From Tetrahymena thermophila SB210 (lineage: Eukaryota > Ciliophora > Oligohymenophorea > Hymenostomatida > Tetrahymenidae), in assembly GCF_000189635.1 (NCBI RefSeq), contig NW_002476355.1:124001-188000 (forward strand): 64,000 bases of DNA, read 5' to 3'. Below are positions 52,616 to 55,625 of this stretch, piece by piece. The notes beneath the pieces were generated by a model. The model searched no databases and was not told the DNA's origin. It saw only the letters and a list, made by a program, of their open reading frames with translations. Numbering within the stretch: position 1 is the stretch's first letter; each line of letters starts with the position of its first letter. The position numbers and the translations under genes are program-made.

Positions 52616-53416
52616 ATGGGAGACAGAGATTTTAGAAAGCAATGCTTATAATGTAAGCGTATGATTCCTCAATTGCATGTTTGCATAAGTTAATCTTGTG
52701 AGGAGAAGTTTATGACATTGATTTGCGAGTAATGTCATAAAGATATTCATGATCATCAAAAGATCCATGAAAAGAAGGATAACGTGAAGCAAATCAGTCT
52801 AGACGAATTTCTTCTATAGATTGAAGGCATGATAGATAGACAAAACTAAATAGAAAAGGAAGGAAAAAGCGAAGACATTTTAAATCTTGTTAGCTAAATA
52901 AATGATTCAGTTAATACAATTGATGATATTGTTAGCAGATTATAAGGGGTAAAAAGCAATTTGTTAACCATCAAAGAGTAAGTCTCAAATCCCTCTGCAT
53001 AGGCCAAAACAATCCATCAGAATTTACAAATTTAAAGTTCTTCAAGTTATCAATAAATTATTCAAAATTTACAATAATTAAAAGGTTTCGCCTAGTTTGA
53101 GGATAACACATTAGTGTTGAAGGATTTAAAGCAAACAAATATTGTGCATGAAGTTGCTCAAACTTAAACTAGAGTCAACAATATATTATAAATTTTATAA
53201 CAATCCTCTTAGTAGACATAATAACAGTAGCAGTTGACAAAGGATGCACTCAAGTCATAGGCAATCGAAAAGGTTAATCAACATATCAAGCAACTCAACC
53301 TGAATATCTCCGTAAGATAGATAAATAACTTTGATGCTTTAAAAATAATTATTAAAATTAACAAATAGTTTAATTCATTTGTAAGTTTCTTAGAGATTTC
53401 GCATTTAATAAATTGA
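52616..53416 (+). CDS. B-box-like zinc-finger, coiled-coil protein; probably exon 1 of the microexon gene
   Basis: Read as one exon, ATG 52616 to TGA 53416 gives 266 residues. A canonical donor (GTAAGT) at 53381 ends codon 255 in phase 0. The better model therefore stops the exon at 53380 and splices into the microexon array at 53466. Residues 10-51 form a cross-brace zinc module: Cys10/Cys13, Cys23/Cys28, Cys37/Cys40, His45/His47/His51, as in B-box fingers. A Gln-rich coiled coil (~60-240) follows, with heptad-like leucines and a poly-Gln patch near 53220. The layout (finger plus coiled coil) is that of TRIM-like proteins without the RING. The finger is probably a protein-interaction module. 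The C-terminal domain would be encoded by the microexons and a last exon. Start choice: first ATG after the AT-rich leader. Confidence 0.82.
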
Positions 53417-53465: not shown

Positions 53466-55118
53466 GAAAAAATCGTAAAACAATTATTTCTAAATAAACT
53501 AAAATTTGACATAAAATATTTTTTTTTAATTTAGAGAGTAAATTTATTAATAATTTGGGAAAGAAAATGATTGATTGATTTTGTTATTCTTGATAATAAA
53601 AAGATCGTAAGTTTTATTCAAAAGACAAAACTATTTAATTTAATATAAATTATAATAATAAATCAAATCAGCAAGTAAAATCTTATTTAAATAACTTAAA
53701 AATAACTTAATAAAATAATTTAAAACAGTACGTAAATATAGGATTTTTATCAGGAATCAATTAAATTAATTGAGAAAAAATATTAAATAGGACGTAATAA
53801 GTTTTGACATTTTTAGAACAATCTTAGTTAGTTAATCATTTAGATGAAATCGTTTCAAAAACAAACAATCAAACGAGATCTTCTAAAAATTAACAAGCAT
53901 TTAAGCAAATCTTGAAGAGAATTAAAATTATTTTTTTACCATCTTAGTACGTAATAATTAAATAACTTATGTTTTAAAAATGAATAATAAATATTAAAAT
54001 ATTTATTTAATAAATAAATAGTACGTAAGATTAATATAAAAAGTTCATGGCAAAAATTTAGTTTAATTTTTTGCAAATTAAAATAAAAAAGCACGTAATT
54101 AATTAATTAAATGCATTAGAAATATATTGTAAAAATATTTTTGGCTGGCATTCAATATCAAAATAGAGAGTAAAATAATTACAATATTTAAAATTATTTT
54201 TATAATAAATAATCAATTAATTTAAATAGGGAGTAAATTTATTTTGGCTGATGAATATTTATTTATTTAGTGTTTTTAATAATTAATCTGATGAAATAGT
54301 ATGTAAGATTTCACTTTAATTAATAAGTCTAGTTTTTCAATAGTATTTTTATTAAAACTAGTATGTAAAATTTTGTTTGAAGGAAATTTCAATTACAAGA
54401 CAATCTGGTTATATCTCTAAAATAGATCGTAATATAATTATTTTTATTAATTAATTAAAATATATGCATGCATCCAAATAATTTTATAATCAATCATATG
54501 ACTTATTTATTTTTTATAAAAAAGGACGTAATTAAATTATTATTTGAACTGATTCATTCAATGTTTTTATTCTGATTTGTTTGAAATCAACAGGGAGTAA
54601 ATTATATTAGCAATTAATTTTTAAAAAATAAAACTAAAAATATTTGCTAAACACAAAACAGGAAGTAATTTATTTTATAATTTTTATCAATTAGTTTTAT
54701 ATTAATTTTTTTAAAGTACGTAAAATAAATAGATTTGAGATTGAAAATTTAAAATTGAGAAATTTGTTGTTTGTAAACTAAAGATTGTAAGTTTAATTTT
54801 ATTTGATGTCCACAAAGCTCAATAAATCTATGCAAATACTATAAAACTAGGCAGTAATTATTAAAAATTTTAGTTTACATAGGTTGTAAAGTTATTCAAA
54901 TTAATTAAAAAAAAAGTATGTAAATATCTTTTTTGCCAATTAATCATTCAGACATAAATACTCTTACTAAAAAATAGTTCGTAATATTAATTATCTATTC
55001 ATTCTTAACCTTGAAATATATTATTAATATTTTTATAATTAGAGCGTAATTTCCTTTTTTAGTTATGTGCTTTTCTACTTCAACAAACTAATTCTAACTT
55101 TAGGAAAAATATCTTGGA
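53466..55118 (+). other. Array of single-codon (3-nt) microexons separated by ~60-nt introns
   Basis: AG-NNN-GTAA recurs on the + strand about every 65 bases. The first member is a 9-nt exon (53466, GAAAAAATC) and the last opens with GAAAAATATCTTGGA (55104). Triplets between them, by first base: AGA 53535; ATC 53604; CAA 53672; TAC 53729; GAC 53791; TAC 53948; TAC 54022; CAC 54092; AGA 54167; GGA 54230; TAT 54300; TAT 54362; ATC 54426; GAC 54525; GGA 54594; GAA 54662; TAC 54717; ATT 54784; GCA 54851; TAT 54917; TTC 54978; AGC 55043. A GTT at 54883 would create two ~30-base introns and is probably spurious. Acceptors are TAG/CAG/AAG and donors GTAAA/GTAAT/GTAAG, as at the confirmed introns here. 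None is TGA; Tyr is the commonest codon. Splicing itself is inference. Confidence 0.72.
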
Positions 55119-55423: not shown

Positions 55424-55473
<50 letters not shown>

Positions 55474-55625
55474 GTTTTTCTTATTTTATATAACTTTTTT
55501 TAAATGTCCTACTTCAAATTCTCATTTTGAATTCAGAAATTTTATATTAAAGCCAGATATATTAATTATAGACATCTCAACCATTTATTTTAAAAAGAGA
55601 AAAGGAGAGAGGTTTTTATAAATGA
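55104..55625 (+). CDS. Possible last exon of the microexon gene
   Basis: From GAA at 55104, in the phase set by the microexons, the ciliate-code frame stays open for 173 codons to TGA at 55623-55625. The first ~80 codons look coding: a short hydrophobic run, then NMPNSGNIQEPFKNN and a Lys/Gln/Asn-rich stretch. The last half runs through an (ATTT)n microsatellite and is dubious. Alternatively the 15-nt piece at 55104 is itself an exon with a donor at 55119. In that case a different frame (55141-55236) followed by GTAATA at 55237 could be the next exon. I cannot choose between these from sequence alone. Confidence 0.35.
55424..55471. repeat. (ATTT)n tetranucleotide repeat
   Basis: About twelve ATTT units downstream of the microexon array, ending in a TTTTAG. 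Confidence 0.92.

Follow-up and report, generated by a model that had tools for sequence, protein, structure and literature searches.

Candidate arrays of single-codon exons in genes of the ciliate Tetrahymena thermophila

Can part of a protein be encoded one codon at a time, with each codon forming an exon of its own? The question arises from a stretch of about 1.7 kb in T. thermophila, in which the initial annotation had seen about 22 single-codon exons, one every ~65 bases. The stretch belongs to what we will call the window, that is, the 64,000 nucleotides analysed here (C182:124001-188000 of a 101-Mb assembly of 445 contigs). Judged from the sequence, its triplets are probably real single-codon exons, a reading to which we give a probability of roughly 0.85, and the genome appears to contain several genes in which coding sequence is split codon by codon.

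The motif array and its gene

Between positions 53381 and 55140 of the window, the motif AG-NNN-GTAA is found 23 times on the + strand, at a spacing of 32-157 (median 67), and the number and the period first noticed are thus closely matched. The spacer has a sharply defined length: when the number of bases between AG and GTAA is varied over the same interval, one base gives 3 matches (which by inspection sit within the triplets AGA, AGA and AGC), two bases give 0, three give 23, four to eight give 0 and nine give 2. Well under one chance match had been estimated, and dinucleotide shuffles of the interval (n=3000) contain 0.53 on average and 4 at most. Elsewhere, the motif occurs 26 times in the other 62.2 kb of the + strand and 14 times on the whole - strand. 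The uniformity of the GTAA donor is in part imposed by the search pattern, which requires it, and GTAT and GTAG donors are also present in other arrays. The triplets read, in order, R I Q Y D Y Y H R G Y Y I D G E Y I A V Y F S, and they are, as had been remarked, rich in tyrosine (7/23) and free of TGA (0/23). Linked as a simple chain, the exons are separated by 26 AT-rich introns of 29-154 nt (median 63); retention of a single intron would break the frame or bring in a TGA in 20/26 cases and keep the frame open in 6/26. Introns of neighbouring genes (32; 12 with GTAA and 9 with GTAT donors) stem from a model with flat splice scores, which is noisy and serves as a rough check only. Downstream of the array, a TTAT tetranucleotide repeat of 11.5 perfect copies is located at 55425-55470.

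For the gene around the array (Table 1), we used a dynamic-programming model, for which 1295 codons and 115 array splice sites served as the training set. Doubtful parts of the model were set aside, namely a 123-nt exon (53828-53950), a 9-nt exon (54120-54128) and all that it places beyond 55118. The first exon begins with an ATG at 52616 (protein N-terminus MGDRDFRKQC) and encodes a Cys/His-rich stretch, with what we take to be B-box-like spacing, followed by a Gln-rich stretch; a Pfam scan of this exon gave no family above cut-off and no leucine-rich repeat (LRR) family. The ciliate code applies because TAA and TAG are read as sense codons in this exon (15 and 9 times, respectively, within the 255 codons matched). 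The initial annotation had placed the end of a zinc-finger exon, in phase 0, at the GTAAGT at 53381: the phase 0 boundary stands, whereas the long exon probably ends at 53311 already, at a canonical 57-nt intron of the model, with a 12-nt exon (53369-53380) in between. Because of this intron, the exon series is 696, 12, 9 and then 3 nt. The array is in phase 0 throughout and ends, as first described, at a longer piece of 15 nt in the same phase. Beyond 55118, the gene may have further exons, or the frame may run on to a TGA ending at 55625. A search of the genome DNA with the joined exons (165 nt) matched only with their first 60 bases, which are the long exon itself, and no intronless copy was found.

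Table 1. Features of the array gene, in window coordinates
Feature	Position	Strand	Basis and remarks
First coding exon, 696 nt, ciliate code 6	52616..53311	+	gene model; open in code 6
Probable intron, 57 nt, GTAAGA...AATAG	53312..53368	+	gene model; C97 gene has an intron at the corresponding place
12-nt exon FNSF	53369..53380	+	gene model, C97 comparison
9-nt exon EKI (GAAAAAATC), phase 0	53466..53474	+	gene model, C97 comparison
Candidate single-codon exon AGA (R)	53535..53537	+	motif
Candidate single-codon exon ATC (I)	53604..53606	+	motif
Candidate single-codon exon CAA (Q)	53672..53674	+	motif
Candidate single-codon exon TAC (Y)	53729..53731	+	motif
Candidate single-codon exon GAC (D)	53791..53793	+	motif
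Candidate single-codon exon TAC (Y)	53948..53950	+	motif; preceding 154-nt gap may hide an exon with another donor
Candidate single-codon exon TAC (Y)	54022..54024	+	motif
Candidate single-codon exon CAC (H)	54092..54094	+	motif
Candidate single-codon exon AGA (R)	54167..54169	+	motif
Candidate single-codon exon GGA (G)	54230..54232	+	motif
Candidate single-codon exon TAT (Y)	54300..54302	+	motif
Candidate single-codon exon TAT (Y)	54362..54364	+	motif
Candidate single-codon exon ATC (I)	54426..54428	+	motif
Candidate single-codon exon GAC (D)	54525..54527	+	motif
Candidate single-codon exon GGA (G)	54594..54596	+	motif
Candidate single-codon exon GAA (E)	54662..54664	+	motif
Candidate single-codon exon TAC (Y)	54717..54719	+	motif
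Candidate single-codon exon ATT (I)	54784..54786	+	motif
Candidate single-codon exon GCA (A)	54851..54853	+	motif
Candidate single-codon exon GTT (V)	54883..54885	+	motif; shortest intron, 29 nt, directly before
Candidate single-codon exon TAT (Y)	54917..54919	+	motif
Candidate single-codon exon TTC (F)	54978..54980	+	motif
Candidate single-codon exon AGC (S)	55043..55045	+	motif
15-nt piece EKYLG, phase 0, then GTAAAA	55104..55118	+	by sequence

The first exon has a relative on C138 (25% identical, E 1.2e-5). In this gene (C138:227501-231600), a finger-like stretch and a C-terminal domain are encoded in one open frame, with no array, and the C-terminal domain has 26 matches in the genome, itself included. 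A correspondence between the window array and the C-terminal domain of this family (DGEYIAVYF versus DGDYIIAFAF) was considered and rejected: 604/3000 shuffles reach the HMM score and, in pairwise comparison, 198/1000 do so for the best score and 27/1000 for the mean.

Recurrence in the genome and similar peptides

The genome-wide search for AG-N3-GTAA arrays that the initial annotation had proposed was positive. Three consecutive units with gaps of 40-70 nt give 1017 overlapping matches (603 + 414), compared to 49 (22 + 27) for the reversed pattern used as a control and 4 for a 4-nt spacer. Since a TTAC microsatellite on C12 accounts for 6 of the 100 three-unit matches listed, the total of 1017 is somewhat inflated; TTAC-type satellites (C11:16793-22854 and C12:435-22962) mimic the reverse complement of the pattern and raise pattern counts. 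Two units with a 3-nt spacer give 2268 matches versus 1128 in the control, in part from TTAC satellites such as that of C11, and two units with a 6-nt spacer are not enriched (511 versus 853). Among the matches listed, and with C12 left out, 35 contigs carry a three-unit match or a junction repeat (see below), with a single junction only for C118 (junction repeat), C167, C266 and C294. Many other loci of this genome carry such arrays, some in another intron phase, in which case TGA triplets need not be stops.

Arrays with unique introns were modelled at nine loci (C4, C10:802k, C13, C97, C138:420k, C182, C209, C262 and C426); a further locus, C10:631k (L038), has no run of four and is outside this set. 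The C4 and C10 arrays are located close to a contig end (at most about 10 kb away) but do not run into it. By eye, a Cys/His finger-like stretch is present upstream of six of the nine arrays (the window, L067 on C97, L037, L039, L040 on C13 and L069 on C209) and is not seen upstream of L071; at L068 and L070, little upstream sequence was covered. In Pfam scans, L069 has a sub-threshold TRAF-type finger (E 5.2e-4; 21.1 bits versus a cut-off of 27), the finger stretches of L067 and L040 give nothing at E 0.1, and no LRR family is found in six and three sequences from other array genes. In phase 0, no stop interrupts the runs on C97, C138 and C262, which comprise 28, 32 and 39 triplets, respectively. 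Pooled over 15 runs from seven of the nine loci (L039 and L069 gave no qualifying run), phase 0 triplets include TGA in 0/150 cases, with ~3 expected from composition, versus 4/135 in each of the shifted frames; taken alone, the absence of TGA is a modest coding signal.

Peptides spelled through these exons were compared between eight genes (L071 left out; 28 pairs), with the micro-exon order shuffled as reference; they stem from the gene models and include some doubtful exons. Two pairs stand out: L069 and L040 (score 48.5; shuffled 23.5±4.6; 0/2000 shuffles as high) and L037 and L039 (34.0; 17.5±3.9; 1/2000), and the other 26 of the 28 pairs have p values of at least 0.0465. In free alignment, the similarity of the window peptide to those of L067 and L070 is not significant (p 0.112 and 0.0745, respectively). 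The L069 and L040 arrays are flanked by similar ordinary exons (AVDEAN and AVAEAN before, CFSCYE and CYKCYP after), and the L069 array, with exons of 3, 6 and 9 nt, is less finely divided than that of L040, which makes L069 a possible intermediate in intron gain. In both genes, micro-exons encode a small C-terminal Trp/His/Cys motif; a genome search with the L069 C-terminus returned only two pieces of L069 itself, Pfam gave nothing for either C-terminus, and PDB sequences gave one match to that of L069 (E 0.76).

The window and C97 genes have the exon lengths 12-9-3-3-3-3-3 in common, and these exons spell FNSF/EKI/R/I/Q/Y/D in the window and YNSY/EDI/K/I/F/K/D on C97 (slashes mark exon boundaries). 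In this fixed exon register, which was picked after the exon lengths had been seen, the first 12 residues score 31 (shuffled mean -11.2; 0/20000), and the agreement weakens with length, with 2/20000 shuffles as high at 16 residues, 32 at 20 and 255 at 30. The intron regions of the two genes have short, scattered, AT-rich matches, which are not collinear.

Contig-end arrays behind kinase exons

A second group of arrays is found at contig ends, and the contigs end inside or near them. In the models of L032-L036, the arrays are located 3' of exons with protein-kinase motifs (5/5 by eye; L035, the one scanned, matches Pfam PF00069 with E 4.5e-35). All modelled 3-nt exons of L034 and L035 are in phase 2, with two bases pending, whereas the phase changes within the models of L036, L032 and L033, which are in phase 2 in part; these changes may be model error. 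For L045, L050 and L072, the models have no kinase-domain anchor and phases were left out. The arrays reach the contig start in C9, C26, C116, C118 and C320 without telomere-like repeats and may therefore break the assembly. A subtelomeric position, which was considered first, is not supported, as no tandem CCCCAA or GGGGTT occurs in the window or the examined loci. Runs of N are present within L047 (575 bases in all) and L048 (503).

In many of these arrays (including L032-L034, L044-L050, L072 and L075), near-identical introns of ~69 nt stand between unrelated triplets, and some arrays are tandem ~72-bp repeats. The junction common to this intron family occurs 130 times in the genome; among the 100 matches listed, 97 have a spacer of 3 nt, two of 2 nt and one of 7 nt. 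At L046 (C320:1-2500), two 2-nt spacers and one apparent 4-nt spacer are seen among 3-nt units, possibly due to decay or assembly error. Among 187 units from 12 loci, which were preselected for introns that diverge by at most 15% from one consensus, the mean pairwise intron difference is 0.9-17% per locus. In the 458 pairs with fully identical introns, 64.5% of triplet bases differ and 45 pairs share the triplet, with ~67% difference expected from composition.

Paralogous genes were compared as well. In the gene pair on C26, 10/749 bases differ in the five kinase exons, 18/131 in the other aligned exons of at least 50 nt, 232/3903 in introns and 44/117 in 3-nt exons; between C7 and C20, the numbers are 41/495 (four kinase exons), 328/2716 and 28/78; and between L033 and L034, they are 133/821 (exons of at least 50 nt), 311/2004 and 41/51, respectively. 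The excess in the triplets is in part due to the alignment of repeat units without true correspondence, and in the collinear part of the C26 pair, between two repeat blocks, 12/75 triplet bases differ (25 triplets).

Contig-end triplets include TGA in 16/436 cases when read in phase 0 and in 2/396 one base later, versus 5.7 in shuffled order (46/1000 as low). This avoidance is suggestive only as a sign of coding, and the coding score in the same reading is equalled in 912/1000 shuffled orders. TGA triplets recur at corresponding places of paralogs, after CTA and between ATA and ATT (L032/L033/L050/L072 and L033/L047/L050, respectively), a recurrence compatible with a phase different from 0.

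Splicing, origin and known systems

The suggestion that a protein segment is assembled codon by codon finds support, at the sequence level, in the frame, in the recurrence of exactly 3 nt across the genome and in similar peptides on different contigs. In the proposed model, the 3' part of the window gene would encode a short segment from 23 one-codon exons; these, and the preceding exons of 696, 12 and 9 nt, share phase 0. The short, AT-rich introns would be recognised individually, by intron definition, and with each excision the growing exon would be extended by a codon that then abuts the next GTAA donor. As the codon is placed before the next donor, the array could be removed stepwise, and both ends of a 3-nt exon would not have to be bound simultaneously. 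We infer splicing itself, its order, the inclusion of the codons and any role of the protein; the stepwise view is adopted because of intron size and site order.

The best surviving alternative shares the single-codon exons with this model and differs on inclusion only: the exons would act as cassettes, skipped in varied combinations at the cost of one residue each, and generate diversity. Exons of 3 nt are symmetrical in any phase, and the contig-end arrays would code for fast-changing tails of kinase genes; residues common to different genes, however, suggest that the product retains some of the codons at least, and we consider variable skipping unlikely. Decidedly less probable still, the whole 1.7 kb could be one intron that is removed via ratchet points (recursive splicing), with the triplets absent from the mRNA. 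At known ratchet points, the acceptor AG directly abuts the donor GT and no exon remains. Repeated acceptor-donor pairs would look alike, and the longest stretch between two of them is 154 nt, but the directly joined form AGGTAA occurs 0 times between 53381 and 55140, versus 23 times for AG-NNN-GTAA; the spacer is exactly one codon, with the phase kept and TGA in 0/150 triplets, and genes on different contigs have peptides that are alike. Hardly credible is a degenerate tandem repeat or satellite, with AG-NNN-GTAA as a repeat feature without coding role, which the ~72-bp repeats, the 2-nt and 7-nt spacers and the uninformative coding score of contig-end arrays might suggest, but TRF detects no tandem repeat of ~65 bp in the unevenly spaced window array, the part common to the units is their splice-like ends, and micro-exon order is informative in two gene pairs and in the window/C97 register.

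If the triplets are single-codon exons, how could such genes arise? Introns may have been gained at codon boundaries, as the possible intermediate L069 and the identical introns at contig ends suggest. The contig-end arrays do not agree with an origin by tandem duplication and later point mutation, which should leave similar triplets next to identical introns; copying of introns, gene conversion restricted to introns or very fast change of the triplets may be at work instead. A tentative and rather doubtful extension is that an active process inserts intron copies at codon boundaries and breaks coding sequence up into single codons; the contig-end kinase arrays, with near-identical introns and unrelated triplets, would be its fresh products and give fast-changing protein tails, and the window array would be an older product, the introns of which have since diverged. 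Introner elements are near-identical introns present at many sites, with signs of transposition such as target-site duplications and terminal repeats. Near-identical introns are seen in the contig-end arrays, among units preselected for low divergence, and no repeat family is seen in the window introns; no empty sites were identified, and we know of no introner that inserts every 3 nt.

Products of the schistosome micro-exon genes (MEGs) are secreted and have a signal peptide. In these genes, as in the arrays described here, many consecutive short symmetrical exons build much of the protein, but their exons are 3-81 bp and their introns up to 5 kbp long, whereas in the long runs of T. thermophila every exon has precisely 3 nt and the introns measure about 60 nt (PMC10526429, in part). 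The closest published structure found is that of the Tetrahymena LRR gene arrays with 90-bp exons, which likewise have tandem exons of one exact length, a single intron phase, repeated sequence in their young copies and species-specific genes; they differ in encoding leucine-rich repeats from 90-bp exons, as opposed to 3 nt in finger-like and kinase genes (PMC6564038, in part). The main text of that article does not mention 3-bp exons, microexons or a short or shortest exon. Isolated tiny exons include a 3-bp exon of Drosophila homothorax (PMC7392893, in part) and a single-nucleotide exon in Arabidopsis (PMC4674806, in part); in the sections available, these are one per gene, compared to 23 in a row in the window gene and 28-39 in each of three further genes. 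Among the matches listed from the open-access literature on Tetrahymena and ciliate microexons and annotation, the available portions contain no report of single-codon exon arrays. In an RNA-seq study of 2012, a junction had to be flanked by 8 bp or more on both sides (PMC3274533, in part), so that such exons could be hidden and their genes missed by standard pipelines, and a short read over an array would presumably cross many junctions.

Should transcripts confirm the arrays, 3-nt exons would not only be rare exceptions, and in several genes the spliceosome would cope with 20-40 of them in a row. This would be relevant to how small an exon can be and still be defined, and it would make stepwise, intron-defined splicing testable in a ciliate, Tetrahymena being a tractable organism. 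The contig-end arrays, in which introns that are copies of each other stand between unrelated triplets, raise the question of intron gain.
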